A stretch of 64,000 nt of DNA from Paenibacillus sp. OV219. GTDB lineage: Bacteria; Bacillota; Bacilli; Paenibacillales; Paenibacillaceae. Position numbers and translations under genes: made by a program. The stretch lies in NCBI RefSeq assembly GCF_900110075.1, contig NZ_FOCJ01000005.1, positions 124,001 through 188,000 of the forward strand. Reading direction: 5' to 3'. The notes below the pieces were generated by a model. It was not told the DNA's origin. It ran no database searches and was given only the letters and a program-made list of their open reading frames with translations. Positions within the stretch are counted from its first letter, which is position 1, and each line of letters starts with the position of its first letter. Of this stretch, positions 32,705 through 49,670 are shown piece after piece.

Positions 32705-35638
32705 CTAAACCTCCATTTTTTCTGATATAGGAGCTGTTCGGCTTTGTTCATACGCAATCATGTTCATAAGCAGCATGTCCGCAGTGGGGTTAACACCAAG
32801 ATTAGCCATAATTCGGAACGAATTCAGTACGATACGTCCGGCGCCAAGAGCATAGGATCCTAGCAATACGCCGGTTGCCACGCCGGTCTCGCACGGGTAA
32901 CCGACAGCGAAAGAAGCAGCCATAACTTCATCAGGAGTATCTTGCCCGTCAAATATATAATCTGGAATGACTTGACCGTAATAATCGATGTCCATAATTC
33001 CCTTTGATTGCAAGCCTTCGAAATATAGATGCTCCTTCGCCACACAATCCTTGTGATACAGCCAGTCAATAAATTTATAGCACCGACCTTTATTCGTAAA
33101 CGGAAACCAACCCATACTATCTTCTCCACGCTTCCACACATGCGGCGAGAGGAATATGACCGTACTGCCAGCTTCGGCTTTTTTCATTAACAAATCCCAA
33201 GTTGCTGAAGTCAACTCTTCTCCGGAAAAGCCCCCAACTATGATAAGTCCATCATGCTCAATTATGCGGTCGGTGAGTGGCTTAATCTGTATCCCTTTCT
33301 TATTCAGCCAATATTCGGCAGTAGAATCGAGTCCGATTACAGAAATTGGTTCTGAGCGAAGAACCCGATACGATTGATTGTACGCTACATTAAATCTAAG
33401 TCTCCCTCCAGATGGCGCTCCGCCGTATTCCATGAATGCCGATAGCTCGTATTCACCGGCTTTCACATCGTCCAATACGACTTGTTCGAGGATGACGGGA
33501 ATTGCGAGAGGACCGTCTTCTCCGCTTTCGGTTTCTGAAATACTGACTTTGGCGCGTTTTTCCCATACGACTCCGCTCTTACCTGAAATTCGGAAACAAA
33601 CGGGGTATTCGCCAGGCAGAAGCACGTCCTCATTGGCCAGAACAGCTTCTACTTGGAATGGAGTCCCTGCATAAACGTGCATCGGTTCTACGAAGAGACA
33701 CCAGCGCAGCGGAGACCATCCGTCTTGCAAAGCTTCTATTACGCCGGGCTTCCATTCTCGGAAGAAAGTCCAAAGTCCTTCGCCGGAATATCCATGGTCT
33801 AGCATGCCTGTCAAATTGTACCCGCAAAACCTTGGATTAGAGCGGACATGATCGAACACCCTTCTCCTCTGCCTGCTATGTATGCGACTGCTGTCTTCGA
33901 GCATATGTTGCGGGAATGCGTAGACCTCCTGCATGCCTAAACGGTTCCATTCCGATTCGAATCGATCTGCCATCCTGCGAAACAACGCGACATCATGAAG
34001 GTCGCTGCGTGCCCCATATTGTTCGAAGTATCTCGTTGCCCGAATGACATCGAGCAGACTGCCATAGCCCCATTCCGACAAGAAGACGGGCTTCGTTTCC
34101 TGACCAAGCGTACGCACGAGTTCGTTAATTGGACCCGTTCGAGGCTCGACCGGATAGAAATGGGCATCTCCCATGCCTTCGTATAACCCTGTCGGATAGC
34201 CCCATTCCCAAGTGAAAGGCGATCTGTTCGGTATTTCGGCCGCACCGTACTCCTCGGCTCCCCATTCAAACTGCCAATTAACATCTCCTGGATTGCATAT
34301 CGTTCCTATCCCGAGCTGTCGATCCCACCTGCCGCTTCCAAGCAATACGAGTCTAGTATCGTCGACAGCTCTCAACTGTGGCAGAATCGATGCTGCGTGC
34401 CGGAATATCGGATCATCCATCGTTTCGTTCAATAGTCCCCAGATCACGACGCAAGGGTGATTGCGATCGCGCCTAACGAGCCCTAATGTGGAATTGTTGA
34501 ATCGCTCTTTCATCATAGGAGAATCTTCCATCCCCCATGATGCAGCACACTCGTTGTAAACCATAAGTCCGATCTCGTCGCAAAAATCCAATTGTTCTTG
34601 AAGAGGAGCCGTGGCAATAAATCGGATCATATTGAATCCACTCGCTTTGGCATAAATGAGATCCTGCCTAACGAGATAGGGATCGGTTATTGCGACTGCG
34701 GTTCCGACCGGATAATGATTGCCCGTATGAGTAGATCGAACAAAAATACGTTTGCCGTTCAAGCGGAAGAAACCCTTCTCCACTCGGAAATCTCGAAAAC
34801 CACACCTTACGGAAGAATGATGGGTTTGAATTCGATCACTCCATTTACTATCCAAGGTTACGTTAACTCTGTACAAATAAGGAACTTCCAAGCTCCAAAG
34901 TCGAGGCTTGTCGATGGTTAGCACCGTTTCGAAGACCGATTCACCGGTAGCAAAGTCGTAATCTCCATTCGAAGATAACAAAACTTCGCCGGATTCACTT
35001 GAACTAACATCTATATTGATTCTACTATTCACTGGAATAGAAGTACCGTTCGCGACCGTTACTCGGATATTGATTTCACCAGTTACCATATTTGGTCTTA
35101 CAAATAAATTGGATATGCGGACTTGCGGTAATTCGACCAGATGGATATCGGAATAGATGCCGCCAAAATTAAATCCGGTGCCTGGCGATACTTCTCTCGT
35201 GCTTTTATGGCGATTAGGAGTTTGCTTCTGTATGATCCCGTCGATTTCAAGATCAATTGGATTAAGAATCCGAATGGCTAATAGATTCTCTCTGCATCTG
35301 ATCAAGTGATCGGTCACATCAAATTCAAAAGGCATTTCCCCGCCTTCATGACTGCCGATATAAATGCCATTGAGCCAAATCTCAGCGTAGTAATCTACGA
35401 ATTCGAACTTCAGAAATTGCTGATGCTCCGAAGCAAACGGCACTCGCGGAACGAAACGATGCCAATACCATGCAACGCCATGATAGTCTGGGAATACTTG
35501 TTGAATGAGGCCGGGGACCGGCGCAAGTTCCGATTCTTCCACAATATTCGATTCATACCATTTCTCTTCCGTACCTTTGTTCTCGGGATCTTTTGCAAGA
35601 CACCATGCCCCCGATAGTACTTGTTGATTATTCTTCAC
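32705..35638 (-). CDS. Glycoside hydrolase family 2 enzyme
   Basis: A 977-residue cytoplasmic GH2 enzyme (beta-galactosidase/glucuronidase/mannosidase type). Residues 30-180 form the jelly-roll sugar-binding domain, then an immunoglobulin-like domain, then the TIM barrel with acid/base Glu405 in VVIWGLLNE and nucleophile Glu522 in KPVFLSEWG. The last 300 residues hold a beta-sandwich and a domain with IIVGGFSGEEL that resembles a Rossmann-like or glutamine-amidotransferase-like accessory part. The exact sugar cannot be told. Of two starts (ATG 35656, GTG 35638) only the GTG has a ribosome site (AGAGGA). Middle gene of the SDR-GH2-BNR operon. Confidence 0.88.
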   Translation of the reverse strand: MKNNQQVLSGAWCLAKDPENKGTEEKWYESNIVEESELAPVPGLIQQVFPDYHGVAWYWHRFVPRVPFASEHQQFLKFEFVDYYAEIWLNGIYIGSHEGGEMPFEFDVTDHLIRCRENLLAIRILNPIDLEIDGIIQKQTPNRHKSTREVSPGTGFNFGGIYSDIHLVELPQVRISNLFVRPNMVTGEINIRVTVANGTSIPVNSRINIDVSSSESGEVLLSSNGDYDFATGESVFETVLTIDKPRLWSLEVPYLYRVNVTLDSKWSDRIQTHHSSVRCGFRDFRVEKGFFRLNGKRIFVRSTHTGNHYPVGTAVAITDPYLVRQDLIYAKASGFNMIRFIATAPLQEQLDFCDEIGLMVYNECAASWGMEDSPMMKERFNNSTLGLVRRDRNHPCVVIWGLLNETMDDPIFRHAASILPQLRAVDDTRLVLLGSGRWDRQLGIGTICNPGDVNWQFEWGAEEYGAAEIPNRSPFTWEWGYPTGLYEGMGDAHFYPVEPRTGPINELVRTLGQETKPVFLSEWGYGSLLDVIRATRYFEQYGARSDLHDVALFRRMADRFESEWNRLGMQEVYAFPQHMLEDSSRIHSRQRRRVFDHVRSNPRFCGYNLTGMLDHGYSGEGLWTFFREWKPGVIEALQDGWSPLRWCLFVEPMHVYAGTPFQVEAVLANEDVLLPGEYPVCFRISGKSGVVWEKRAKVSISETESGEDGPLAIPVILEQVVLDDVKAGEYELSAFMEYGGAPSGGRLRFNVAYNQSYRVLRSEPISVIGLDSTAEYWLNKKGIQIKPLTDRIIEHDGLIIVGGFSGEELTSATWDLLMKKAEAGSTVIFLSPHVWKRGEDSMGWFPFTNKGRCYKFIDWLYHKDCVAKEHLYFEGLQSKGIMDIDYYGQVIPDYIFDGQDTPDEVMAASFAVGYPCETGVATGVLLGSYALGAGRIVLNSFRIMANLGVNPTADMLLMNMIAYEQSRTAPISEKMEV

Positions 35639-35686
35639 GCTGGTACATCCTCTCATGAATTGTGCCGAAACGTTCGATATGAATGA

Positions 35687-36481
35687 TCAAATCTGATGAT
35701 AGACGGAAGTTTGGATTTCTGGGGCATGATAAGCAGAATAGCCGCCATCCACGTATAGGGTCGTACCTGTAATAAACTTCGCTTTGTCAGATACGAGAAA
35801 CAGAGCCGCCTCGGCAATGTCCTCGGGCGTTCCAAGCCTTCCTTGGGGAGTACGTCTAACCATATCTTCACGGTTTAGTAATCCTGCATTAAACGTATGA
35901 TCCAGACCTTCCGTCAAAATATAGCCAGGAACAACCGCATTCATGCGAACTCCATCCGCAGCCCACTCACATCCGATTGTACTTGTAAAGCTATTAATTG
36001 CTGCCTTTGCAGTAGCGTAAGGACTTCGATTGGGAATCCCTCCCAATCCATGGATGGATGAAATATTAACGATAGCACCACGTTTTTGCTTAAGCATGAT
36101 TTTGCCTGCAGCCTGGGAGCAGAGGAATGTGCTTTTTAAATTAATGTCGATAATTTGGTCCCATTCATCTTCCGTAAAATCGACCATTGCCTTTCGAATC
36201 GTACCTCCGACATTGTTAATGAGAATGTCCACCTTGCCGAATACTCGTAACGTTTCATCGAATATGCGTTCAACATCGGTTTTGCGCACAACATCCGCTT
36301 CGACTACTAGACATGTACCCCCGTTTTGACGGATATGCTCCTCGACTTTAAATGCAGCCTCCATATGAATGTCGGCAATGACGACTCGCGCTCCTTCCTC
36401 AGCAAGCGCTATAGCGATAGCTTTGCCTATTCCGTTTCCGCCTCCTGTGACGACCGCAATTCGGTCTTCAAGCAATCTCAT
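35687..36481 (-). CDS. SDR-family NAD(P)-dependent oxidoreductase
   Basis: A 264-residue classical short-chain dehydrogenase. Cofactor loop TGGGNGIG at 14-21, NNVGG, catalytic Ser in NISSIHG, and YATAK (Tyr-x-x-x-Lys). The C-terminal ITGTTLYVDGGYSA is typical. It probably oxidises a sugar or sugar acid. AAAGGGGG before the ATG at 36481 fixes the start, six codons into the open frame. First gene of the operon with GH2 and the BNR/ricin enzyme, divergent from a GntR regulator. Confidence 0.88.
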   Translation of the reverse strand: MRLLEDRIAVVTGGGNGIGKAIAIALAEEGARVVIADIHMEAAFKVEEHIRQNGGTCLVVEADVVRKTDVERIFDETLRVFGKVDILINNVGGTIRKAMVDFTEDEWDQIIDINLKSTFLCSQAAGKIMLKQKRGAIVNISSIHGLGGIPNRSPYATAKAAINSFTSTIGCEWAADGVRMNAVVPGYILTEGLDHTFNAGLLNREDMVRRTPQGRLGTPEDIAEAALFLVSDKAKFITGTTLYVDGGYSAYHAPEIQTSVYHQI

Positions 36482-36531
36482 TGGCTTCCCCCTTTCCATT
36501 CCGTAACCGCTTTCAATAAGGATCTGGTATC

Positions 36532-37422: not shown

Positions 37423-38184
37423 ATGTATGATTTTACGGGGCAAGTGGCGCTTGTGACAGGCGCTGGCAGAGGTATCGGCAAGAGAATCGCCTTGAAGCTT
37501 GCTGAATGCGGTGCGAATGTTGTCGTGAATTATGCGAACAGCGCACAAGGAGCGAACGAAATCGTTAGTGAAATAGTAAAGCTAGGCCGTCAGAGCTTTG
37601 CCCACAAGGCAGACGTGTCCGACGTCAGTCAGATTCACGAAATGGTTGAGAAAACGATTGAAAGATTCGGCAAAATCGATATTCTCGTCAATAATGCCGC
37701 TATCGATCCTACGATCGACTTTTTCGAAGTGACGGAAAGCTTCTGGGATCGTGTTGTCGATACGAATTTGAAAGGCGCCTTTTTTTGCGCTCAAGCTTGT
37801 GCTGCGGTAATGAGAAAGACCGGTAAAGGAAAGATCATTAATATAAGCTCTGTCCACGGCAACCTGACAATGCCGCAATACGCCGTTTATGCCTCGACCA
37901 AAGGCGGTATGAACGCAATGACCAGGCAGCTCGCGCTCGATTTGGCCCCATATCACATCAACGTTAACGCGGTTGCTCCGGGTGCGACGGAAGTCGAGAA
38001 GTTTACAGAAAATCCGAACCACGACAAATATGCTGTGGGCAAGCAAATTCCGCTTGGACGAATCGGATACCCAGAAGACGTTGCTGAAGCGGTCTCTTTT
38101 CTATCAAGCTCTGGCGCGGACTTTATTACGGGTCAGATTCTTACCGTCGACGGTGGATCGAGCACTCGATTTTTCCTGCAATAA
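37423..38184 (+). CDS. SDR-family oxidoreductase (FabG-like)
   Basis: A 253-residue short-chain dehydrogenase. TGAGRGIG at residues 12-19 is the cofactor loop, NNAAID, catalytic Ser in NISSVHG, YASTK, then ITGQILTVDGG. NADP preference cannot be judged firmly. AAGGGGG stands before the ATG. It forms a two-gene unit with the GntR regulator, so it probably acts on the same sugar-derived compound as the divergent operon rather than in fatty acid synthesis. Confidence 0.87.
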   Translation: MYDFTGQVALVTGAGRGIGKRIALKLAECGANVVVNYANSAQGANEIVSEIVKLGRQSFAHKADVSDVSQIHEMVEKTIERFGKIDILVNNAAIDPTIDFFEVTESFWDRVVDTNLKGAFFCAQACAAVMRKTGKGKIINISSVHGNLTMPQYAVYASTKGGMNAMTRQLALDLAPYHINVNAVAPGATEVEKFTENPNHDKYAVGKQIPLGRIGYPEDVAEAVSFLSSSGADFITGQILTVDGGSSTRFFLQ

Positions 38185-38269
38185 ATAATATTATCCAATA
38201 GAGATGCTATAATTAGAGACAAGCTGAGATGCTCAGCAGACGAAATCACTAGACTGTAGGAGGAGAACA

Positions 38270-38638
38270 ATGACCATATCAGGTGTTATTCCGCAGCTTA
38301 GAACGTTGAATCTTGACAGTACGATTCATTTCTACACGACGAAGATAGGCCTCGAGCTTGCGTTCCGCCACGAGGATTTCTACGCCGGTATTCGGGCAGG
38401 GAACCAGGTATTCCATCTCAAGCTTGCAGATGAACAAGACCCTTCTATCCCCTTTACTCGAGACGGCGATCATTTCCATCTCTACCTGCAAACGGACGAT
38501 GCTGCTAGCTTAGCTGAAGAATTGAAGGCTCGCGGAGTCGCTCTTGCTGCTGAAGTGTGCGAGACAGAATGGAATACGAAGGAATTTATCATTGAGGATG
38601 ATCAGGGTCATACGATATATTTTGGCGAGGCGCTTTAG
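38270..38638 (+). CDS. VOC-family protein
   Basis: A 122-residue VOC-domain protein (glyoxalase/bleomycin resistance-like): VIPQLRTLNLDSTIHFYTTK at the N-terminus, FHLYLQT at the middle strand and HTIYFGEAL at the end. TAGGAGGAG precedes the ATG. Metal ligands and substrate unknown. A single gene ending in a strong terminator. Confidence 0.85.
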   Translation: MTISGVIPQLRTLNLDSTIHFYTTKIGLELAFRHEDFYAGIRAGNQVFHLKLADEQDPSIPFTRDGDHFHLYLQTDDAASLAEELKARGVALAAEVCETEWNTKEFIIEDDQGHTIYFGEAL

Positions 38639-38698
38639 CGGATATAGGTAAAAGATGACGATCACGCACAAGAGTTTGGCGAATTGGCAGGCTCATCA

Positions 38699-38747
38699 TG
38701 CTCGAGAATGAAGTCTTGTTGGGACTTCATCTCGGGCATTATTTTTA
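38699..38747 (+). terminator. Terminator after the VOC gene
   Basis: An ATGAAGTC/GACTTCAT stem with outer TGCTCG/CGGGCA pairing followed by TTATTTTT. Confidence 0.85.
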
Positions 38748-38818
38748 CCTCGTTTTTGGAATGTAACGAATCTGAGAAACGTTATTGTGTTGAAATCAGA
38801 CTCAGCGTCCAGCTAGCG

Positions 38819-39745
38819 TTACCCATTCAATATCTCATCCAATATGTTCCTAATCTCGTAGATATCTCTCATCTCTTGAACCGTCTTCCCCGTGTGCCTC
38901 AAGTAGATCTCCCTCATGTAATCCGCGCCAAAATCATGCAGAAGCAGTCCATCAAACAACATACCAACCGCATCCGGATGATCAACATCTGCGACAAATG
39001 CTTGAATCGCTGCTTGATCGTGGTCGAAGAGATCGAACAATATCGGAGGATATTCATACCAAGCTGGGGCAAATGAGCTTTCTGCAAAATCAATCATGTA
39101 GAGTTGATCATTCTTATCGAGAATGACATTGTTGGCGTTGATATCTCCATGTACACTGACGCAATGAGAGAGGTCGAGCTCTTCGATGAGCGCTACAGCC
39201 TGCCTTCTCACAGACTCCGGGTACGGCTGCCATCTATGATTCATTTTGGCCTGATTACGCATACCAGAAGCATCAATCTCCTGATCTGGTTTGATGTTAT
39301 ACAGAGCCATATTGCTCTTAAGAGCTTGGATAAATGGCATCCTCTGAGTGTGATCGAACTTCTTGAAAGCTTGTCCCGCTACCTCGCCTTCAATGAATTC
39401 CGAGATGATGTACGGAAATAAGTACTTGTCTTGCCAGTAGGAGGCGGCAACAATCTTCGGTGTACGAATGCCTAGTTCATGCGCTCTTCGCGTGGATTGG
39501 ACCTCCAATTCGTAACCTGCTTCTGTACCTACACCAGACTCTTCGGGTGCAAAGATCTTTACTACATAGTTACCTGCCCTAAATACTGCATTCGTTGCAG
39601 GCGTAAGCAGTGCGAGCTGATCGCTACCAACAAGCGTTTCCCTCCCGAATATGGCATGGATTAACGGACTGAACTCCTCTATGGACTGCAGGATCGATGA
39701 CCAGGTCGGCCAATCGTAGATTTCTTTGTGAAAAAGAGTCCCCAT
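38819..39745 (-). CDS. APH-fold phosphotransferase
   Basis: A 308-residue APH-family kinase with VHGDINANNVIL near residue 198 as catalytic loop and MIDFAESSFAPAWYE near 216 as metal site. Substrate unknown. Last of three APH genes in a row on the same strand (41620 to 38819). AGGGGAG upstream of the ATG. Confidence 0.82.
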   Translation of the reverse strand: MGTLFHKEIYDWPTWSSILQSIEEFSPLIHAIFGRETLVGSDQLALLTPATNAVFRAGNYVVKIFAPEESGVGTEAGYELEVQSTRRAHELGIRTPKIVAASYWQDKYLFPYIISEFIEGEVAGQAFKKFDHTQRMPFIQALKSNMALYNIKPDQEIDASGMRNQAKMNHRWQPYPESVRRQAVALIEELDLSHCVSVHGDINANNVILDKNDQLYMIDFAESSFAPAWYEYPPILFDLFDHDQAAIQAFVADVDHPDAVGMLFDGLLLHDFGADYMREIYLRHTGKTVQEMRDIYEIRNILDEILNG

Positions 39746-39779
39746 TCTCTATTTCTCCCCTATGAATATTAATATTCAC

Positions 39780-40637
39780 TCATTGGTGCTCCAAACGTGC
39801 TATCTCTGCGCTCATGCCCTTAATGATGCCATCGAACCACCCTTTACCTTGAGGAACCCATCTCCTAGCGGCCTGTGCGAACCAAGCAAGATGAAGGAAA
39901 TGATGGAGTTGTACGATCCCAATAGGAACATGCTGTGTTGGATCAATTCCCAATGATAGAAGCAGTGTAGCGGTATCCAGCAATACGGGACCACGAATCG
40001 GCCGCTGCCAGTCGAGGACTCTGTAACCATCAGGTGTAACCAAGACATTGTCAGCTTTCAAGTCCCCATGGACGTATCCTACCTGAGTGTGGAGCGCATT
40101 CATGATTGTCGAACCTTTACTCCAATCAGAGAGGCTGCTTACTAGCTCAAGATCTACCTGCTTAAAACTCCCTTCATGAATCAAGAAACGCATATCATCG
40201 AAGACCATTTCGGTATAAGCAGTCCAGTGTTCTTCGGTACTAATATCTAAAAATATCGGTAAATCTCCCTCTATCTCTCCGATCTGTTTCAGCAGTTCAG
40301 CAGCAATTCCTGGGATCTCTGTCTGCTCCAGCTCAATGTCGTTCAACCGCGGAGCGTTGACATCCTCCATGATCATTGCCGACATACTGCCTTCCGCCTC
40401 GATTTCACGCACAGAAACCAGGAGCTTCGATCGCGCCTGATTGTAAAAGCTTGCTTCAATTGTCGGCGGCGCCTGCACCTTGTAGATGTAGCTGTTGCCA
40501 CTTGCAGTTCGTACACGTTGGACACACGATAGAGGCCACTCGTGAATCGTAGCTCTTTCCAATACCGAACTATCAAGCAATTTGGTTAGTTCGTCGTCGT
40601 CATGCAGCAATAAATCGAATGATGGATGTCGATACAT
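39780..40637 (-). CDS. APH-fold phosphotransferase, paralogue of the 42613-43467 gene
   Basis: A 285-residue protein. The core keeps YVHGDLKADNVLV as catalytic loop and RVLDWQRP as metal site. It is clearly paralogous to the gene at 42613-43467: both begin HPxFxLLLHDDxEL, then ERxTxHxWPLSCVQRxR and IYKVQ, and continue in parallel to the C-terminus. The WPLSCVQRxR segment is not part of common APH families and marks a special subgroup. The frame opens earlier (40673), but the ATG at 40637 aligns with the paralogue and has AGAGGTG upstream. Confidence 0.78.
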   Translation of the reverse strand: MYRHPSFDLLLHDDDELTKLLDSSVLERATIHEWPLSCVQRVRTASGNSYIYKVQAPPTIEASFYNQARSKLLVSVREIEAEGSMSAMIMEDVNAPRLNDIELEQTEIPGIAAELLKQIGEIEGDLPIFLDISTEEHWTAYTEMVFDDMRFLIHEGSFKQVDLELVSSLSDWSKGSTIMNALHTQVGYVHGDLKADNVLVTPDGYRVLDWQRPIRGPVLLDTATLLLSLGIDPTQHVPIGIVQLHHFLHLAWFAQAARRWVPQGKGWFDGIIKGMSAEIARLEHQ

Positions 40638-40675
40638 AACTGTATACACCTCTCTCGTATGATCAGCTAACATTG

Positions 40676-41620
40676 CTAAACCTTTTCTTCGATCTCAGCT
40701 TTCAAGCGGAGCCATTTCACTTTGAGATCATGATTTACCGTCTCCCATTCATAACGTTGGAATAAGAAATTGTAATCGAGCAGCCTTCGGTATCGAATGA
40801 ATCTCGGCAATGCTTCAAGCCACCAGCTCTCGATGGTATTTATCTCTTGATAGCCTTTCAGAAACCATTCAAGAAACCAGGCTGCATGCTCGTTCGGATC
40901 CCCCTCAATATTCAGTCGGTTATGTCTAACGCTGACCGAGTAAAGGATGATCGCAATGTCATAAACGAACCAATGATAGCAGGAATCGTCAAAGTCAAAT
41001 GCAGTAATGGTACCATCTTCCATTACAAAAATGTTGTGAGCATGCAGATCACAGTGGACCAGGCCGTAGTTTCGCGAGTCTGTCGGAAGCGTTTCCAACC
41101 AATTCAATAACTCGGTCGCTTGTTGCCTTGCAATGACCTCCTCTTTCGGCAAATGCCGCAGCATATCCATCCATGGTTCTTGCTTCCAATCCCGTCGTTT
41201 GGCATTCTGCAAGGGAACGTAGGATTGGGTAAGCAAGTGTAACTGTCCGAGAGTCCGTCCCCAGTGAACAAACATGTTCGGGTTCCAGTCCTCTTCCGTC
41301 GGAGTTCTGCCAGGGGCTTTAGCGAATAGTGAAGCATAACAGCCCTCTGTAACATTTTCAACCCATCTACCTGTTCTTGATAGGAACGGCTGAGGAATAG
41401 ATAGTCCATTATTAAACATGTAATTCATAAAGTGTAGTTCCGCTACGATTTCTTGTTCGCTACGCCAGCTTTCTTTCGATACACGTAATATCTGATCACC
41501 GTGACCGTTATGTGCAGGAGATTGATATATGGCATTAACATTGCCGCCTGTATAAGTAAGAAGACTAGCATCCAACCCAAAGGCGTCTGCTGCTGCGTCC
41601 AAAACACGATCCTCTACCAT
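40676..41620 (-). CDS. APH-fold phosphotransferase (homoserine kinase type II-like)
   Basis: A 314-residue APH-family kinase. VHCDLHAHNIFV near residue 188 is the catalytic loop and FDFDDSCYHWFVYDIA near 208 the metal site, a pattern shared with spectinomycin/homoserine kinase-like proteins. The ATG at 41620 has AGAAGGGGG upstream and was preferred to the ATG six codons earlier. First of three adjacent APH genes. Confidence 0.83.
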   Translation of the reverse strand: MVEDRVLDAAADAFGLDASLLTYTGGNVNAIYQSPAHNGHGDQILRVSKESWRSEQEIVAELHFMNYMFNNGLSIPQPFLSRTGRWVENVTEGCYASLFAKAPGRTPTEEDWNPNMFVHWGRTLGQLHLLTQSYVPLQNAKRRDWKQEPWMDMLRHLPKEEVIARQQATELLNWLETLPTDSRNYGLVHCDLHAHNIFVMEDGTITAFDFDDSCYHWFVYDIAIILYSVSVRHNRLNIEGDPNEHAAWFLEWFLKGYQEINTIESWWLEALPRFIRYRRLLDYNFLFQRYEWETVNHDLKVKWLRLKAEIEEKV

Positions 41621-41706
41621 TTCAGACCCCCTTCTCATTTCCTTTATTCAATATTTCCGTTTATGTACTTGCTTTTCCTGCCTCTTCTTGTCGAAATACG
41701 CAATCA

Positions 41707-41732
41707 AAAAGCCCGCGGAATACGCGGACTTT
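41707..41732 (-). terminator. Terminator after the metallo-hydrolase gene
   Basis: CCGCG/CGCGG stem with extended pairing, followed on the minus strand by CTTTTTGATTG. It separates the two groups of APH genes. Confidence 0.75.
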
Positions 41733-41748
41733 ACCATTCACAATAATC

Positions 41749-42588
41749 TTACTTCAGCGCCCGGTCAGATACGTACACATACCTTTCGAAGCGTGCCAGA
41801 ACATGACTCTTCTGTGTAGGGTAATTCTTGTACAAATAGTCAATGAAATAGCCCGGATTCTCCGAATTCCCTTCGAACATGTCATAATGCGCTGGAATGA
41901 CGGTGTCGATGCCCGCAGCGACCGCAAACTCGGCAGCCTCGCGGAAGTTCATGTTGCCAACAATATCACGCGCCAAGCGGAAAGGATCGCGTCCATTAAT
42001 CGGCAGAAGCGCGCAGTCGACGTTCTCCGCTTTCACGGTCTCGATCATTCCGGGATAAATCGTCGTATCTCCCGCATGATAGAATGTCACTCCATTCAGC
42101 TGAATCACGTAGCCGACGAAACGATGATCAAGCGCCTCATCGTACTCAAGCTCCTCATGAGCAGCCGGGATCGGCATATATCGCAGCCCTTTTACCTCCT
42201 GCCACTCGCCTGTTTTCGCATGAACGCGTCGCTCCTGTGGCACGCCATATTCAGCGAGGGCGTTCAGGCAATAGCCTGGTGCAACAAATACCGTATCGCT
42301 GCGATTGTTCGCCATCCCAGGAATCGTATCTGGATCCATGTGATCGATATGATCATGCGTAATCAGCACGCAATCGGCATTGACTACCTCTTCAGGCCGA
42401 AGTGGCGGCTTGAAACGCCTGTAAGGAGCATCAGCCAAATAAGGATCTATATATACAATCGTATCGCCACCTTTGATGACGACGCTTACTTGCCCGAGAA
42501 ACCAAATGGCGAGCATGCCATAAGGGACGCGTGTTTCGTTGATCTCCTGAATTAACGCTTCGCCTGTACGAACGTTAGTATTCTCCAT
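41749..42588 (-). CDS. Metallo-beta-lactamase-fold hydrolase (UlaG-like)
   Basis: A 279-residue MBL-fold enzyme. HDHIDHMD near residues 77-84 is the HxHxDH metal motif, HAGDTTIY gives the bridging Asp and PAHYDMF the last His. The arrangement resembles the UlaG (L-ascorbate-6-phosphate lactonase) branch, which is longer in E. coli. A lactone or phosphodiester substrate is possible. AAGGGGG precedes the ATG. Forms a two-gene unit with the APH-fold gene 24 bp upstream, ending in a terminator. Confidence 0.85.
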   Translation of the reverse strand: MENTNVRTGEALIQEINETRVPYGMLAIWFLGQVSVVIKGGDTIVYIDPYLADAPYRRFKPPLRPEEVVNADCVLITHDHIDHMDPDTIPGMANNRSDTVFVAPGYCLNALAEYGVPQERRVHAKTGEWQEVKGLRYMPIPAAHEELEYDEALDHRFVGYVIQLNGVTFYHAGDTTIYPGMIETVKAENVDCALLPINGRDPFRLARDIVGNMNFREAAEFAVAAGIDTVIPAHYDMFEGNSENPGYFIDYLYKNYPTQKSHVLARFERYVYVSDRALK

Positions 42589-42612
42589 TTCTTTCTGTTC
42601 CCCCTTAAAATT

Positions 42613-43467
42613 TCAACATTCGGTTAAACACAATTGGAGTTTAGCAATTTCTCTGTCATAACCTTCCGCACCATCTGGAAACCAGCGTAGTGCACATTGA
42701 ATGAACCAGGATATTTTCAGAATACCTAATAAGTCTATCACACCTGGGTTTACATATGGTCTCGGGTCCATACCTAATTCTTCTAACAGATTTGCTCGAT
42801 TAAGTTCAATTGGCCCATAGAATGCCTTCTGCCAATCAATAACCTTGGTTCCATCTGGATGCATAATGATGTTGCCGCGGTTCAAATCTCCGTGTACTAA
42901 ACCGCTCGTCGATTGTATCACAGTGAGAACCGAGGAATGATTACACACCGATGCGATTCTATCCAGTACATCTCGATTGGTCTCTCGAAAGGTTCCACGC
43001 TCAATTAACGTTTCAAGGTCTCTTAATTGCGTGATCGTGTAACGATTCCAGTTAGAGAGGCCGCCAATGGTAGTTAGAAAAGGGAGAGCGCCTTCAACTT
43101 CAATTTGAGAGATTTGATAGGTAATGTCATCGACGAGACGTAACGCTTCATCCCTATCCAATGTAAGCTCGGATAAGCAAGGAGCATCAATATCCTCTAA
43201 GAGCAAGGCATGTAGAGAATCATTCTGCTCAATCGCTCGCGCACTAACTAATAGAGAGGAACGCGCTGCTCTATAGAACGGAGCCTCAACAGAAAATTCA
43301 CCTTGCACTTTATAAATTATCGTTGACGCATCACTCATACGAATACGCTGAACACAGGAAAGTGGCCATTGGTGAAGCGTTGATCTCTCTGTTATGGAAG
43401 TTCCCAGGATGGATTCAAGCTCCTCGTCATCGTGCAATAGCAAATTGAAATACGGATGTTTAATCAA
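42613..43467 (-). CDS. APH-fold phosphotransferase, paralogue of the 39780-40637 gene
   Basis: A 284-residue protein with LVHGDLNRGNIIM as catalytic loop and KVIDWQKAFYGPIEL as metal site. The N-terminal HPYFNLLLHDDEEL and WPLSCVQRIR identify it as a paralogue of the gene at 39780-40637; the pair probably arose by local duplication with the metallo-hydrolase now between them. TTG start, six bases after AGAGGG. Substrate unknown. Confidence 0.78.
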   Translation of the reverse strand: MIKHPYFNLLLHDDEELESILGTSITERSTLHQWPLSCVQRIRMSDASTIIYKVQGEFSVEAPFYRAARSSLLVSARAIEQNDSLHALLLEDIDAPCLSELTLDRDEALRLVDDITYQISQIEVEGALPFLTTIGGLSNWNRYTITQLRDLETLIERGTFRETNRDVLDRIASVCNHSSVLTVIQSTSGLVHGDLNRGNIIMHPDGTKVIDWQKAFYGPIELNRANLLEELGMDPRPYVNPGVIDLLGILKISWFIQCALRWFPDGAEGYDREIAKLQLCLTEC

Positions 43468-43519
43468 GTGAGTCCCTCTCCCTAACAGCTGTAAGTGGAT
43501 TAGTTACAATGTGCGCTAG

Positions 43520-43556
43520 AAAAAAAAGCTCCTCATTAAGAACCCATGAGAAGCTT
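43520..43556 (-). terminator. Terminator of the sugar-acid operon
   Basis: AAGCT/AGCTT and CTCAT/ATGAG stems with a single mismatch, followed on the minus strand by T8. Confidence 0.88.
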
Positions 43557-43585
43557 AAAGAGATTCCACAATTCCATACTAGAGA

Positions 43586-44359
43586 CTAGATGCCCATTCC
43601 TCCTGCGATAGAGAGCTCTGTTCCCGTTACCTGAGTAGACTCATCCGACAGCAGATAGACGACGCCATAGGCCATGTCATCTGACGTTTGCATGCGTCCA
43701 GTTGGAATGCGGGTTGTCGCCCATTCCTGCAGCTGCTCCTCGTTGTAGCCCAATTTGCCATACAGCTCCAGCTCGCCTTCGGATGCCACCCAACCAACCG
43801 TTACCCAATTCGAACGGATGCCATCCCCGGCATAATGGACTCCGATATTGCGGTTAAGTGTCCGCATCGCGCCTTTCGAGCATGCGTATGCGACAAGATC
43901 CTTGGAGCCTTTATAACCATTCGTAGAACCAATCTGAACGATGGAGCCGCCGCCTGTCTTCTGCATCTCCGCAATCGCATACTTCGAACAGAAGAATGCC
44001 CCTTTGACGTTGACGTCGAAGATGGAGTCGAAGAACTCCTCCGTCGTCTCCAGTATCGTGCTTCGCGGGAAGACACCCGCATTATTCACAAGACCATCTA
44101 TACGCCCGAAATGCGCGACCGTCTCCTCGATCAATTCGCGGCAACCCGCCTCGCTGCTAATATCCTTCTGAATGAATAGCGCTTCCGCTCCGAAATCCTG
44201 AGCAATGAGCGAGACGACTTGGCTCCCGTCCTGCTCGTTCCTGCCGCTAATGACTACCTTCGCGCCTTCTGCCGCGCACATACGAGCGATGCCTTTACCA
44301 ATTCCTTTCGTTGCGCCGGTAACGACGATCACTTTGCCTTCCAGACGATTATTACCCAT
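43586..44359 (-). CDS. SDR-family oxidoreductase, last gene of the sugar-acid operon
   Basis: A 257-residue short-chain dehydrogenase: TGATKGIG at 14-21, NNAGV, catalytic Ser in QIGSTNGY where most members have ISS, YACSKGA (Tyr-x-x-x-Lys) and a C-terminal VTGTELSIAGGMGI. Loss of the second Ser of ISS is tolerated since the QIGS Ser aligns with the catalytic one. Six bp after the dehydratase; the ribosome site is inside the end of that gene. Likely acts on a sugar or keto acid of the pathway. Confidence 0.86.
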   Translation of the reverse strand: MGNNRLEGKVIVVTGATKGIGKGIARMCAAEGAKVVISGRNEQDGSQVVSLIAQDFGAEALFIQKDISSEAGCRELIEETVAHFGRIDGLVNNAGVFPRSTILETTEEFFDSIFDVNVKGAFFCSKYAIAEMQKTGGGSIVQIGSTNGYKGSKDLVAYACSKGAMRTLNRNIGVHYAGDGIRSNWVTVGWVASEGELELYGKLGYNEEQLQEWATTRIPTGRMQTSDDMAYGVVYLLSDESTQVTGTELSIAGGMGI

Positions 44360-44365
44360 GAATAA

Positions 44366-46360
44366 TTAGCCTCCCGTCTTCTGCTTGGATCTCGCTATCG
44401 CTTCCATACCTGCTTGCAGCGTTTCGACGATCCGATCGACATCATAGATGCTTCCCCTCCACGTGCCTCCGCTTGCTGCTTGAAGTGCAGCCCATAGCCG
44501 CGTATCATCAGGCAGACCTGGATCGGGGGCAAGGTCAGGATGCGACGGACGTGCTGCTAATATCGCAGCGCCATCATCGGGGCTGAAGCGCTCTTCGCCC
44601 TGACCTACGAAATCGATGCTGCCTTCCAGCTTATTGATATCAATACGGACATCAATCCAATCACCATTCTGCAGCTTACCGATTGGACCACCAACCAGCG
44701 CTTCAGGACTGATGTGCCCGATACAAGCTCCAGTCGACACGCCCGAGAACCTTGCATCTGTCAGCAGCGTTACATGTTTTCCGAATGGCAGATGTTTTAA
44801 TGCCGAAGTTAACTGGTACGTTTCCTCCATACCTGTTCCGGAAGGACCTCTGCCCATCAATACTAGGATATTGCCTGCCTGTACTTGACCGAGCTTGATG
44901 GCTTTAACCGCCTCTTTCTCGGAGGTGAATACTTTAGCTTGCCCGGTATGACGGTATACACCGTCTTCCCCGACAACGCTTGGATCAATTGCCGTTGACT
45001 TGATAACCGAACCTTCTGGAGCCAGATTGCCAATAGGAAAAGTAACCGTGGACGTCAATCCTCTGGCGTATGCTCGCTGCGGACTCATAATGACTTCATC
45101 AGGATCAATGCCGTCGATATCTTGTAAACGTTTGCGAACGATATGGCGCCGCTCCGAATCTTCCCACCAGTCTAGGACATTGGCTAACGATTCGCCCGCG
45201 ACTGTCTTGACGTTCAGATTGAGCAGACCGAGCTTACGCAGATGAAGCATAACCTCTGGAACGCCCCCAGCCATAAACACACGGATGGTCGGATGATATT
45301 CCGGTCCGTTCGGCAGCACGCTCACAAGCCGCGGAACCGCCTTGTTCACACGGGTCCAATCCGCAACATCGGGTATCCGGCATGCTGCCGCATGAGCAAC
45401 TGCCGGGATATGTAGCAGCAAATTCGTGGAGCCGCCGAATGCAGCATGAACGACCATCCCATTCTCGATGGCAGCATCTGTTAAGATATCTCGCATTGTA
45501 ATGCCGCTCTCATGCATACGCTGAATCGCTCTAGCAGATTGACTAGCAATGTCGCGCCAGATCTGCTGGCCGGACGGTGCGAGTGCCGAATGCGGCAGTG
45601 ACATGCCAAGAGCCTCGGCGACAACTTGCGCGGAGGCGGCGGTGCCAAGAAACTGGCATCCGCCTCCAGGTGTGGCACATACACGGCAACCGAGATCGGC
45701 CGCTTCCTCTAGCGTGATCTGTCCATGTGAATAACGAGCTCCGATGGTCTGGATCTTCGCCGCGTCTTCACCGACAGTCGGCGGCAGAGTAACGCCTCCT
45801 GGCACGACAACTGCAGGAAGATCATGCATCGCAGCAAGGGCAATCATCATGGCGGGAAGCCCTTTGTCACAGGTGCCCACCCCAATGACGCCACTTCTTG
45901 TCGGAAGCGATCGAATCAGGCGTCGGTACACCATCGCGGCATCATTACGGTAGGGCAGTGAATCAAACATACCGGTCGTCCCCTGCGAACGACCATCGCA
46001 AGGATCACTAACATAGGCGGCGAAGGGAACTCCGCCAAGTGCGCTCACTTCAAGCGCAGCCTCTTTGACGAGAATACCTACTTCCCAGTGTCCCGTATGG
46101 TAGCCGAGCGCGATCGGCGTGCCGTCTTCGCTGCGAAGACCGCCTTGTGTGCTAAGGATAAGTACCTGCTTACCGAGAAGTCGCTCGGGCTTCCACCCCA
46201 TGCCGACATTTTGGCTCATGCCGAATAAATCCCCGCTTGGGAGATTCATCAGCATATCGGAAGTAAGCGGAAGCTTGCCCTCTGGACCGGCTGCGTGGGT
46301 GAAGATGTCATATCGATTCGGATCTTCTGCTCCCATGACGAAACGTATTGCTTCGGACAT
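44366..46360 (-). CDS. yjhG: YjhG/YagF-type D-xylonate (aldonate) dehydratase
   Basis: A 664-residue member of the IlvD/Edd superfamily. It matches the E. coli YjhG/YagF branch (about 655 residues) along its whole length, including [62 protein letters not shown], and [15 protein letters not shown]. Cluster-binding cysteines are Cys in SDPCDG, GTCDKG and GGGCQF. YjhG dehydrates D-xylonate to 2-keto-3-deoxy-D-xylonate. Start preceded by GAGGTGAGG. Fourth of five genes in the operon; the neighbours supply dehydrogenases and an isomerase. Xylonate is the most likely substrate, but other aldonates are possible. Confidence 0.9.
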
Positions 46361-46383
46361 CGTGTTACCTCACCTCAGGTTTG

Positions 46384-47166
46384 TTATTTCCAGCATACGA
46401 TCGTTTCGCCAGATAGGGCATCCGAAGCGGAGCCGCACAGGAACATAACGATGCTCGACATATCTTCTGGCTGCGCGATGCGCTGCAGGCGGGACCGTCC
46501 TTCTTCGCTTCCCACAGTCCGCGTCGCAAGGAATCTACCGGTATAAGTTGGAGCAGGTGAAATACAGTTCACGTTCACATCATACTTTCTCAGTTGCTCA
46601 GCAAGACTTCGTGTATAGAACGAGATGCCAGCCTTAGCCGATGCGTAGATGATTCCTGACGTCACCGGTACATGTCCTGCAATCGATCCGACATTCACGA
46701 TCTTGCCGGCTCTTCTCTCTTTCATATGCAAGCCCGCAAACTTGCAAGCATACATGGTCGACAACAGGTTCCGCTCGACAACCGAACGAATATCTTCGAC
46801 GGATATATCAAGCGCATCGTTAGGATCAGGGCGAGGCGTGTTTAGACCAATATCGCCACCTGCGTTATTGACGAGAATATCCAAGGAGCCGAGCTCGGCA
46901 ATGGCGCCGTTAATTAGCGACTCGACTTGAACCGGATCGGCCAGATCAGCTGCAATAAACGCCGATTTGACGCCAAGCTGTCTGATTTCCTCGGCAACCG
47001 CATGGCCGGAAGCCGCTTCATTGAACTCAGCTGCCGAGCTATCTGAAATATCATGAATAATCACGTTAGCGCCTGCGCGAGCTAGATCAAGCGCGTATTG
47101 CTTACCAAGCCCCCGGCTCGAACCGGTAACTAGCGCATTCTTACCTTGCAATCCTGTCGTATTCAC
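46384..47166 (-). CDS. SDR-family oxidoreductase of the sugar-acid operon
   Basis: A 260-residue short-chain dehydrogenase: TGSSRGLG near 14-21, NNAGGDI, catalytic Ser in NVGSIAG, YASAK, C-terminal ALSGETIVCWK, shorter and less typical than in its neighbours. GTG start overlapping the stop of the isomerase (GTGA), with AGGGGGG upstream, so translation is coupled. Confidence 0.86.
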   Translation of the reverse strand: MNTTGLQGKNALVTGSSRGLGKQYALDLARAGANVIIHDISDSSAAEFNEAASGHAVAEEIRQLGVKSAFIAADLADPVQVESLINGAIAELGSLDILVNNAGGDIGLNTPRPDPNDALDISVEDIRSVVERNLLSTMYACKFAGLHMKERRAGKIVNVGSIAGHVPVTSGIIYASAKAGISFYTRSLAEQLRKYDVNVNCISPAPTYTGRFLATRTVGSEEGRSRLQRIAQPEDMSSIVMFLCGSASDALSGETIVCWK

Positions 47167-48173
47167 AATGATCCCCCCTGAGATATTGTAGATTCACTGC
47201 GGCTTCCAAACTTGCGGATTTGATGCGAAAGATACCCCATTGCGATATCCATCTCTTCCAATTCGTACTTCGCAATCTCATCCGGTGTTTGTCCACGCTC
47301 GTAAGGTGTTCTCCAATCGCCACCTGCTCTGGCGTTATCCTCCACGAAGCGTAGAATTCGGGTTAGCTGCGATGCTGTGCGAGGTGGATATTCGGTCCAG
47401 AAATCCTCCTGAAGAACCCGCACATGCCGCGCTTCAAGCGCACCGTGTTCCACAGACATCGTTACATTCGGGTTAACCTCGCTTAATAGCTGGAAGAGAT
47501 CTGGAAAGTCGATGACGCCTTGCCCGACTGCACAGCGAACGAGACGGTATCCATCTTCGGACCGGTAGATTTTGTAATCCTTCAAATGAGCATTCTTGAC
47601 ATACGGTGCAACTTTTCGGAAGAAATCGGCAGGGTGTTCGGCTGTTGCAAGCGGGTTGCCTGTATCAAGTGTAATCCCAAACCGCTCAGAGCCGATTGTT
47701 TCGCAAAGCCACAGTATTTCTTCGGAAGCGATATCCTGGTGATTCTCTACGGTAAGATTAACGCCGAGTGTCTCCGCGACTTCCGTGGCTTCTTGGAATG
47801 AGCTCAAGATTTGTTGGAGAAAAGGCTGCCAGGTTCCCGCCATATGACGGCGATCTCCGCCGAATTTAGCCCCGCCTACGACAGTACGGAGCGTTATTGC
47901 GCCAGCCAGCTTCGCAACATGAAGCGCTTTCACAAGTGCCGCAGGCTCGAAACCGCCCATCGCAACGTTGACGAACATCCCTTTCTGTCTCGCGTAAGCG
48001 GCAACTTCTACTGGGTCACTCTGCGATAGCACATCTAGAGGAATTTCCACACCTTCAAGGCCATACGCTTCCGCCATGTCAATCTGATCCTTCGCCGTAA
48101 TGCGCACTCGATTAGAGGCGCCTGCAAGCCCCATATGATATACCGTTCCGTAAGCAGTAAGTCCGAATCTCAT
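47163..48173 (-). CDS. Sugar phosphate isomerase/epimerase family protein
   Basis: A 336-residue xylose isomerase-like TIM barrel. Metal ligands appear in LTVENHQD (Glu), ITLDTGNP (Asp), NAHLKDYK (His) and MSVEHGAL (Glu). The last 60 residues extend beyond the common barrel and include WRTPYERGQTPDEIA. Not the same subgroup as the 277-residue isomerase at 18812. AAGGAGGAG before the ATG, 14 bp after the upstream SDR. Probably isomerises an intermediate of the same sugar pathway. Confidence 0.83.
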   Translation of the reverse strand: MRFGLTAYGTVYHMGLAGASNRVRITAKDQIDMAEAYGLEGVEIPLDVLSQSDPVEVAAYARQKGMFVNVAMGGFEPAALVKALHVAKLAGAITLRTVVGGAKFGGDRRHMAGTWQPFLQQILSSFQEATEVAETLGVNLTVENHQDIASEEILWLCETIGSERFGITLDTGNPLATAEHPADFFRKVAPYVKNAHLKDYKIYRSEDGYRLVRCAVGQGVIDFPDLFQLLSEVNPNVTMSVEHGALEARHVRVLQEDFWTEYPPRTASQLTRILRFVEDNARAGGDWRTPYERGQTPDEIAKYELEEMDIAMGYLSHQIRKFGSRSESTISQGGSL

Positions 48174-48187
48174 CTACGTACTCCTCC

Positions 48188-48943
48188 TTATTCTGCCGTC
48201 CATCCGCCGTCTATGACGATGGATGATCCAGTCATAAAGCTCGATACGTCGGAAGCGAGGTATACTAATAAACTCGCTAGCTCCTCCGGCTTGCCCCAGC
48301 GTTTGATCGCCAGATGATTCATAAAGAATTGATTGGCCTCAGGATTGTTCATAACGACCTGATTAAGTTCTGTGGCAAAAGGACCCGGGCAGACCGCATT
48401 CGCAGTAATGTTATGCTCCGCCCATTCCAGTGCCATTACTTTCGTCAGTTGAATAAGACCGCCTTTGCTGGAGCAGTATGCTGACCTTTCTGCTAAACCG
48501 ACTGTGCCCAGCATAGATGCGATGTTAATAATACGTCCGAATTTCTGCTTGATCATATGCGGCACAACTGCTTTCGCGCACAAAAAAGGCGCTTTCAAAT
48601 TTGTCCCTTGCACGAGATCCCAGCTCGCCTCATCGTAATCGAGGATCGGCTTGCGTACGTTCACACCAGCATTATTAATCAAGATATCAATACGCCCGAA
48701 CTTCTCGATGACTTCACCTGCTGCTCGTTCGATCTGTGTGTAATCAAGCACATCAAGTGCCAATCCTGCCGCTCTAATGCCCGTTTCTTCGGTCAACAAC
48801 GCTGCTGCTTGCTCAGCTTTACCGAGATCCCGGCTGGTGACGACAACATGCGCTCCGGCATGCCCTAGCGCACGGGCGAATTCAAGACCTAATCCTTGCG
48901 TGCCCCCAGTAATCAGCGCTGTTTTTCCTTCCAATGTAAACAT
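48188..48943 (-). CDS. SDR-family oxidoreductase, first gene of the sugar-acid operon
   Basis: A 251-residue short-chain dehydrogenase close to gluconate 5-dehydrogenase/KduD types: TGGTQGLG, NNAGVNVRKP, NIASMLGTVG with the catalytic Ser, YCSSKGG and a C-terminal MTGSSIVIDGGWTAE. GGAAGGAG upstream. It leads the five-gene operon, about 70 bp after a strong promoter with a cre-like operator. Confidence 0.88.
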   Translation of the reverse strand: MFTLEGKTALITGGTQGLGLEFARALGHAGAHVVVTSRDLGKAEQAAALLTEETGIRAAGLALDVLDYTQIERAAGEVIEKFGRIDILINNAGVNVRKPILDYDEASWDLVQGTNLKAPFLCAKAVVPHMIKQKFGRIINIASMLGTVGLAERSAYCSSKGGLIQLTKVMALEWAEHNITANAVCPGPFATELNQVVMNNPEANQFFMNHLAIKRWGKPEELASLLVYLASDVSSFMTGSSIVIDGGWTAE

Positions 48944-48989
48944 GATACAGCGTACACTCCTTCCACAACCTCATCATAATAAAGTCTCT

Positions 48990-49006
48990 TAGGAAAGCGC
49001 TTCCTT
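48990..49006. promoter_or_regulatory. cre-like operator of the sugar-acid operon
   Basis: AGGAAAGCGCTTCCT is a near-perfect dyad centred on AGCGCT, like the CcpA cre sequence TGWAANCGNTNWCA with three mismatches at the outer positions. It lies just after the predicted transcription start, where binding would block elongation. A LacI-family regulator other than CcpA would also fit. Confidence 0.55.
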
Positions 49007-49019
49007 GTTCATGTCCAAT

Positions 49020-49049
49020 ATTATACTTTATAAGTGCAAAGTCTGTCGA
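49020..49049 (-). promoter_or_regulatory. Sigma-A promoter of the sugar-acid operon
   Basis: On the minus strand TCGACA (49044-49049), 18-bp spacer, perfect TATAAT (49020-49025). Confidence 0.75.
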
Positions 49050-49076
49050 AATAGGTCGAATCGTAAAATTTTTCTA

Positions 49077-49526: not shown

Positions 49527-49641
49527 TCCAAATTAACTCCCTTACGATGATTTACTAAAAATGCTAATCATTGACCTGAAATCTGTCAATTCCAATTCAG
49601 TGCCATGAGCCGGTGTGGAAGCAAATAAATACAATCGCATA

Positions 49642-49670
49642 AAAAAAATCCGCTAGGGGAGCGGATTTTT
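49642..49670. terminator. Terminator of the YdcZ-Crp operon
   Basis: AAATCCGCT/AGCGGATTT stem around GGGG, with A8 before and T5 after; it touches the stop codon at 49670. Confidence 0.85.

Follow-up and report, generated by a model that had tools for sequence, protein, structure and literature searches.

Two neighboring APH-fold kinases of Paenibacillus sp. OV219, here called A and B, form a rare and distinct subfamily, new as a subfamily yet of known fold, in a cluster of four such kinases and a UlaG-like hydrolase beside a sugar-acid operon. Judged from sequence comparison, A and B are most likely not products of duplication at this site. Tentatively, we favor a reading, which we hold to be somewhat short of probable, in which the operon and its UlaG-like lactonase picked up accessory small-molecule kinases, A and B having sugar-type substrates. 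In annotation, APH-fold genes commonly appear as aminoglycoside phosphotransferases, and many lack a known substrate. The whole 64,000-nucleotide stretch analyzed is referred to as the window; all features described lie on its reverse strand.

Results

Profile searches place four APH-fold genes and the hydrolase within 38819–43467, as originally predicted. D (38819–39745, 308 aa), A (39780–40637) and C (40676–41638) are consecutive, followed by the hydrolase (41749–42588) and lastly B (42613–43467, TTG start); the row of three was correctly described, in slightly loose wording as to the hydrolase and B coming after C. All four kinases pass the PF01636 gathering cut-off of 23.2 bits (D 43.9, A 28.2, C 86.9, B 36.9) and carry the catalytic HxDxxxxN and metal-binding D motifs, which read HGDINANN and IDF in D and are kept as HGDxxxxN and (L/I)DW in both A and B. 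The predicted total of seven APH genes in the window also stands: the other three, at 86–1090, 7630–8544 and 25750–26703, score 60.6, 27.5 and 89.5 bits, respectively, and are distant from all cluster genes by BLAST and alignment. The longest open reading frame of A spans 39780–40673; its start is probably the ATG at 40637, as had been proposed, where an RBS-like sequence is shared with G077, the genome of a relative. Against PADLOC anti-phage models, A and D gave only short matches below 20 bits, and B, C and the hydrolase gave none at 1e-3.

The noted concentration of APH genes exceeds chance. Contig C16 (417 kb), picked for the test since the window is on it, holds 16 of the genome's 37 APH genes (2.5 expected, p = 7e-10); with the window removed, the rest of the contig holds 9 of 30 (1.75 expected, p = 3.7e-5). 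G077 has a dense APH stretch around the same locus. Such a dense region is not general, since genome G168 shows no APH clustering (at most six in 420 kb, reached by 1456 of 2000 shuffles). In three of the four genomes with APH positions examined, mostly unrelated kinases are gathered in one region. GNAT enrichment was considered as a property of C16 and discarded (6 of 65 genes, 4.4 expected); in G077, 14 of 82 GNAT genes lie within 3.54–4.01 Mb, where 5.8 are expected.

By profile matches, the adjacent sugar-acid operon (43586–48943) begins with an SDR-family oxidoreductase (48188–48943) and continues with a xylose-isomerase-like TIM-barrel protein (47163–48173), a second SDR-family oxidoreductase (46384–47166), a YjhG/YagF-type D-xylonate dehydratase (44366–46360) and an SDR-family dehydrogenase (43586–44359). 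The dehydratase scores 1167.3 bits against TIGR03432, above the cut-off of 808, and so resembles that of the E. coli YjhG/YagF operons; the partners differ, being SDRs and a UlaG-like hydrolase here, and no aldolase was found among the ten genes scanned across 38819–48943. The hydrolase matches PF12706 (91.5 bits) and PDB 2wyl (E = 2.3e-15). It shares the metallo-beta-lactamase fold and HxHxDH motif with UlaG, the L-ascorbate-6-phosphate lactonase, but at 78.4 bits falls below the NF008688 equivalog cut-off of 306, and in four relatives it lies next to an SDR dehydrogenase; we regard it as a putative sugar lactonase.

A terminator hairpin with an 11-bp stem and a T run occupies the gap between SDR and B (43526–43556) and is conserved in G077, which argues that B is transcribed apart from the sugar operon. 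A second, terminator-like hairpin, with a 10-bp stem followed by a T run, lies between the hydrolase and C (41708–41732); at the end of the hydrolase gene in G077, the 80 bases tested form no hairpin. Scans of 38000–49700 gave 14 promoter sites against 15.5 expected by shuffling, which is uninformative, and 4 terminators against 9.0 expected; the terminator scan missed both named hairpins, the first because its 9-base loop exceeds the limit of 8.

The neighborhood is conserved with one relative, G077, which keeps the order SDR-TIM-SDR-YjhG-SDR-B-hydrolase-A-D and lacks C. This keeps the original prediction from being refuted outright, since an unconserved neighborhood was part of its stated ground for refutation. 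At four other loci (L130–L133) the hydrolase directly adjoins the ortholog of the SDR at 43586–44359 with no kinase between, whereas in the window B and the terminator separate the two. None of the cluster's kinases was found at any of ten hydrolase loci (L128–L137; the L130 contig ends just past the hydrolase). B and the hydrolase lie on different contigs in G045, and A and the hydrolase are 5 Mb apart in G097. The proposed pairing of kinase and hydrolase is therefore a real adjacency here that does not extend to L130–L133 or to G045.

As had been noticed, A and B have in common an N-terminal HDDxEL and WPLSCVQRxR pattern, and 112 of 283 residues (about 40%) are identical. The pattern was described as atypical of known APH families; A and B form a distinct APH subfamily, B representing a second subgroup. 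Members occur in 8 of 22 genus genomes, and a species scan gave 26 loci; because WPLSC and DWQ served as search patterns for the family set, motif conservation within it is partly by selection. One plasmid relative of A resides on an 897-kb replicon of P. cellulositrophicus. Topic searches of the literature on amicoumacin kinase, APH-fold sugar kinases and YjhG operons, made by subject, listed no paper on the WPLSCVQR family.

The AlphaFold2 model of A (mean pLDDT 94.9, pTM 0.89) adopts the full two-lobed APH/choline-kinase fold, with a best Z of 17.1 over 257 residues and 8–16% identity over the fold to the 50 structure matches listed. In the model, WPLSCVQR lies at the beta1-beta2 turn, W45 ending beta1 and S48 starting beta2, which does not favor the motif as a substrate signature. 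This turn is the site of the nucleotide-positioning loop in known APHs, so the motif probably concerns nucleotide binding. Choline/ethanolamine kinases (Z 17.1–16.8) are about as near to the model as antibiotic kinases, and weak NCBIfam matches link B to methylthioribose kinase (26.4 bits of 275 needed) and link thiamine kinase to A (21.1 bits) as well as to B (23.8 bits), where 299 are needed. These resemblances would suit kinases that act on other metabolites (amino alcohols, nucleosides, or compounds resembling thiamine or methylthioribose) and are unconnected with the operon, a reading we consider unlikely: the NCBIfam matches are far under the cut-offs and span just 42–79 residues around the catalytic loop, and fold ranking does not tell substrate.

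The original prediction suggested local duplication behind the cluster. A and B do flank the same gene at 40% identity, and they are the only pair among the window's seven APHs to match by BLAST at 1e-5; the other pairs share 13–24% identity in a joint alignment, a fold-level resemblance. Forcing A (from the window and G077) and B into one clade was rejected (delta lnL 54.6, p-AU 0.0002; rows for the test were named after a first tree had been seen), and proteins from MAGs (L035–L038 and L040) are 44–48% identical to A, against 39% for B. That tandem duplication in place, followed by specialization, made the kinase cluster is thus very improbable. The first tree omitted L039 (the same gene as L022), L050 (broken in three frames), L051 (cut by a contig end) and L052 (47 residues matched only), and the second tree, used for the clade test, additionally omitted the long rows L048, L049 and L053.

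The suggested survey of WPLSCVQR-type proteins and their neighbors yielded sugar genes adjoining the kinase at 10 of 25 manually read loci and none at 11; the family therefore has no fixed partner gene. Three Paenibacillus loci carry a response regulator, a histidine kinase, a solute-binding protein and two permeases, with Gfo/Idh at two of them; L047 has a solute-binding protein and Gfo/Idh, and L035 has LacI, a solute-binding protein and GH38. The loci with no adjoining sugar gene are L023 (DUF6843, GNAT), L028, L029, L030, L032, L037 (PIN, GNAT), L040, L041, L042, L044 and L049. ABC-permease adjacency was weighed as strong evidence of sugar function and downgraded: in G168, 16% of random positions and 5 of 35 APH genes have a PF00528 gene no more than 5 kb away, a lower bound, the scoring having covered 150 of 249 permease candidates. 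Sugar transporters are thus common in the genus, making such adjacency weak evidence.

At the Chloroflexota locus L038, also among the ten with sugar genes, a 6-phosphogluconolactonase-type propeller gene overlaps the kinase gene, behind a gene for an enolase-superfamily sugar-acid dehydratase. Two putative lactonase folds occur beside family members, the propeller there and the UlaG-like fold by B in the window. It is conceivable, though distinctly improbable, that the WPLSCVQR family represents a new kinase class that acts on sugar lactones or sugar acids and works with lactonases of two unrelated folds; if so, it would give oxidative sugar pathways a phosphorylating side branch.

Relative to G077, dN/dS is 0.16–0.17 for A, B and D (0.17 for both B and D) and 0.03–0.10 for ten neighbor genes, with similar dS; the SDR at 37423–38184, which corresponds to two separate ORFs in G077, is left out of the table. 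These values suggest that A, B and D are old, functional residents under purifying selection, less constrained than their neighbors. D is sparsely distributed, with matches at 1e-30 in 4 of 147 family genomes, a count that includes the genome of the window.

C aligns with the amicoumacin kinase AmiN (AmiN/hAmiN; PDB 6SUI, 6SUM) nearly full length (residues 8–317 of 319, E = 1e-51), with 105 of 305 aligned residues identical (34%). It is no closer to AmiN than to 19 matches in 16 other Paenibacillaceae-type genomes (29–35%, different aligners being used). The predicted detoxification of natural products thereby retains one modest, sequence-based lead in C, tempered by generic relatives that are equally close. 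No biosynthetic cluster was recognized among the window genes read. A mobile-element origin of C was considered and rejected, as no match appeared in 72,556 plasmid records (1e-30) or 50,697 phage records (1e-10).

Discussion

Could all four kinases instead inactivate natural products, with the sugar operon a bystander? We regard this as possible but doubtful. The likeness of C to AmiN, the APH-rich region, the higher dN/dS of A, B and D and the patchy spread of A, B and D are all in keeping with it, as are the two ABC exporters and further APH gene beside the A-type gene of L040. The report on Paenibacillus sp. LC231 describes a tested intrinsic resistome with many drug-modifying enzymes, including a macrolide kinase (PMC5155152); the likeness is that of one Paenibacillus strain rich in such enzymes. 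Weighing against it, A and B show no clear specific tie to a known resistance kinase (the best PDB profile match, spectinomycin kinase, reaches 21.4 bits, E = 0.0011, over 65 positions only), sugar neighbors recur at 10 of the 25 family loci, and C has no plasmid or phage match at the thresholds above.

The actinobacterial GlcNK, of APH/maltokinase fold and annotated as maltokinase or aminoglycoside phosphotransferase, proved to be a sugar kinase, namely a glucosamine kinase, according to the published report (PMC6520443). It resembles A and B in fold, but the signature given there, Q-x2-RE-x2-YA-x3-LP-x-W, occurs in 0 of 29 A/B family sequences.

Returning to accessory kinases gathered by a sugar-acid operon, and building on the observed gene content and order, catalytic motifs, relatives and selection and on the modeled fold of A, we envision that the operon and lactonase acquired them where the chromosome is rich in APH genes. 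B would have been inserted behind the terminator, in the gap from the SDR to the lactonase, and A and D after the lactonase; C, absent from the same locus in G077, probably arrived last. A–D would be ATP-dependent APH-fold phosphotransferases under purifying selection. A and B may act on a sugar, a sugar acid or a lactone that is processed alongside the pathway of the operon, and C may be a resistance-type kinase akin to AmiN. The gene order kept in G077, the SDR and hydrolase adjoining without a kinase at L130–L133, the conserved terminator, the dN/dS values, the fold of A and the ten loci with sugar genes speak for this reading. The 11 loci with none, the commonness of sugar transporters, the separate transcription suggested by the terminator before B, the absence of the cluster's kinases at L128–L137 and the separated genes in G045 and G097 speak against it.

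The locus offers a rare subfamily with clear bounds, a fold modeled with confidence and catalytic residues that are intact; its neighborhood is conserved in one relative, and the list of candidate substrates is short. APH genes can be densely packed without having arisen by duplication, as mostly unrelated kinases can gather, which bears on how environmental bacteria build stores of possible resistance genes.

Organization and history of the kinase locus

The four clustered APH-fold kinase genes, APH_A (40637-39780), APH_B (43467-42613), APH_C (41638-40676) and APH_D (39745-38819), hereafter A to D, lie on the minus strand of the window, which covers 124001-188000 of contig C16 in a 6.1 Mb genome of 38 contigs; the nearest named relatives of A are mostly from Paenibacillus, suggesting that this genome does too. 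In transcription order, the locus reads SDR (48188-48943), TIM-barrel protein, SDR, dehydratase, a third SDR (43586-44359), B, a UlaG-like metallo-hydrolase (41749-42588), C, A and D, where the dehydratase is of the YjhG/YagF type (TIGR03432, 1167 bits; cut-off 808). In a profile search these four kinases and the window's three other APH genes all exceeded the Pfam cut-off, bearing out the cluster of four, and seven in the window, that had been read from sequence. The original prediction's start for A, 40637, agrees with upstream sequence kept in the related genome G077 and is probably correct, since that sequence is common to both. Beyond the cluster, at 32705-36499, G077 also shares with the window an SDR and a gene of glycoside hydrolase family 2; the sugar theme therefore extends past the interval first proposed. 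For another SDR (37423-38184), the counterpart in G077 is interrupted, leaving two ORFs (L021:13284-14044).

The hydrolase has a metallo-beta-lactamase fold and is related to UlaG, but its 78 bits fall far below the UlaG equivalog cut-off of 306. Related proteins are common, with matches at 1e-40 in 40 of 147 family genomes, although some are just ~40% identical. The dehydrogenase and dehydratase in its gene company suggest a sugar lactonase.

Gene order in G077 matches that of the window, without C. At four loci from other genomes (L130-L133), orthologues of the SDR at 43586-44359 and of the hydrolase adjoin with no kinase between them, L133 also having the dehydratase and the second SDR of the operon; at six more (L128, L129, L134-L137), the hydrolase occurs without this SDR orthologue and without any cluster kinase. 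In another genome, G045, B and the hydrolase are on separate contigs. From the SDR-hydrolase pairs and the other locus comparisons, we infer that B probably entered between these two genes. Between the SDR and B, both the window and G077 keep a hairpin followed by a run of Ts. A second terminator-like hairpin, between the hydrolase and C (41708-41732), folds in the window, and no counterpart folds in an 80-base stretch of G077; it may have come along with C. C and this terminator were either added in the window lineage or lost from G077. Addition would be favoured because of the extra terminator and because C has no relative above 35% identity among 147 family genomes. Between the window and G077, dS is 0.47-0.97 throughout the genes compared, and dN/dS is 0.16 for A and 0.17 for both B and D, against 0.03-0.10 for ten other genes; A, B and D are old residents, functional and under weaker constraint than those ten.

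C aligns over residues 8-317 with AmiN (E 1e-51, 34% identity), the kinase (EC 2.7.1.230) reported to account for self-resistance in an amicoumacin producer (PMC7235827). This identity is about that of its other relatives: at 1e-40, C is matched in 17 of 147 family genomes including its own, and, because the 16 others match at 29-35%, it belongs to a broad group and is no proven AmiN. The proposal of detoxification thus gains a modest lead in C only, and we regard a resistance role for the kinases as possible, though rather doubtful.

The clustered kinases are not local duplicates

The concentration of kinases had been ascribed to local duplication, which proved wrong. Among the window's seven, only A and B were linked at 1e-5 (all-against-all BLAST of 37 proteins of the genome); in a joint alignment, these share 40% identity and the remaining pairs 13-24%. 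A is closer to MAG proteins from Chloroflexota, Bacillota and one unassigned source (L035-L038 and L040, 44-48%) than to B (39%). A clade of A (window and G077) with B was rejected in a tree of 26 members (p-AU 0.0002), a test whose rows were named after viewing a first tree of 29 rows, the question itself being that of the original prediction.

Of the genome's 37 matches to PF01636, the window's 417 kb contig carries 16, against 2.5 expected; with the window removed, the remainder of the contig still carries 9 of 30 (1.75 expected, p 3.7e-5). The densest 420 kb holds 13 of 36 APH genes in G077, a single contig, and 16 of 50 in G097, neither reached in 2000 shuffles. In G077, 14 APH genes fall within 3.54-4.01 Mb of 6.63 Mb, a stretch containing the homologous locus and lying roughly half-way round the numbered sequence; in G097, two dense stretches picked by eye (3.25-4.02 and 6.00-6.58 Mb) hold 17 and 18. 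G168 has no dense stretch, its densest 420 kb (6 of 35) being the same as in shuffles. Of the four genomes compared, three therefore concentrate their APH genes in particular regions. In the dense stretch of the window genome, most of these genes are not related to each other. Another contig of this genome (C25, 176 kb) is rich in GNAT acetyltransferase genes, with 13 of 65 against 1.9 expected.

A rare APH subfamily and its gene neighbourhoods

Judged by sequence, A and B make up a subfamily of APH kinases that is rare and is new with respect to the libraries searched. At 1e-8, A is matched in 8 of 295 genomes of the bacterial family, all within the window's genus, and B in 8 of 22 genomes of the genus; sorted by identity, three genomes (window, G077, G045) carry B-type copies and seven carry A-type ones. 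A scan of 84,980 species genomes, its reach restricted by two search patterns, gave 26 family loci, some partial, in Paenibacillus, Lederbergia, several Chloroflexota and MAGs from other phyla. In the phylum to which L040, an Anaerolineae locus, belongs, at least two of 400 sampled genomes match at 1e-30 (up to six candidates scored per genome), one being L040's own. A Lederbergia member (L050:7992-8860) is broken up over three reading frames, as would be expected from gene decay or from errors in the sequence. An A-type gene also occurs on an 897 kb P. cellulositrophicus replicon labelled a plasmid (L140), near a gene annotated as a helveticin J family bacteriocin.

In an alignment of 24 members, K64, H201, D203, D220 and W221 never vary, and N208 hardly does. 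The AlphaFold2 model of A (mean pLDDT 94.9, pTM 0.89) places the WPLSCVQR motif in the beta1-beta2 turn, which we take to be where other APHs position the nucleotide. The model is about equally near the hygromycin kinase APH(4)-Ia, choline/ethanolamine kinases and macrolide kinases (Z 17.1 to 15.7; 8-16% identity among the 50 matches listed), so its structural ranking indicates no substrate.

Neighbours, classified by hand at 25 loci (L036 and L050-L053 left out), included sugar-related genes at 10, counting the window and G077; the case was weaker at 3 and mixed at 1, and at 11 no such gene adjoined. A response regulator, a histidine kinase, a solute-binding protein and two permeases lie beside the family gene at L031, L033 and L034 (Pfam run on L031, the other two assigned by homology to it), with Gfo/Idh besides at L031 and L034. 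L035 has LacI, a solute-binding protein, permeases and GH38; L038 an enolase-superfamily dehydratase and a PF10282 lactonase; and L039/L022, where the family gene itself is a B-type copy, has permeases and two proteins with a melibiase-type C-terminal domain. Gfo/Idh adjoins at L045 and L047, with branched-chain amino-acid type ABC genes upstream at L045 and a solute-binding protein at L047. At L038 (6779-8846), the lactonase gene overlaps the A-type kinase start by 38 bases, the dehydratase lying upstream. The weaker cases are a sulfatase (L048), an alpha-amylase on the opposite strand (L046) and an IlvD-type dehydratase (L043), which possibly serves amino-acid metabolism since its best matches are branched-chain dihydroxy-acid dehydratases; the mixed case, L025, has an aldo/keto reductase and an arsenical-type permease, with ABC permeases 5 kb off. 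No sugar gene adjoins at L023, L028, L029, L030, L032, L037, L040, L041, L042, L044 or L049, though solute-binding, two-component and carbohydrate-permease genes lie 4-10 kb away at L030. At L040 (1848-7359, an Anaerolineae MAG), the A-type gene is arranged head to tail with another APH kinase gene and two exporter-type ABC genes. These counts were set against G168 only, rather than matched controls; there, a permease gene is found no more than 5 kb from 5 of 35 APH genes and from 16% of positions drawn at random, and single adjacencies therefore carry little weight.

We envision a sugar-acid operon with accessory small-molecule kinases alongside, the kinases having arrived separately. As our best, if tentative, reading, which we rank above resistance, A and B may act on sugar-type substrates beside this operon.
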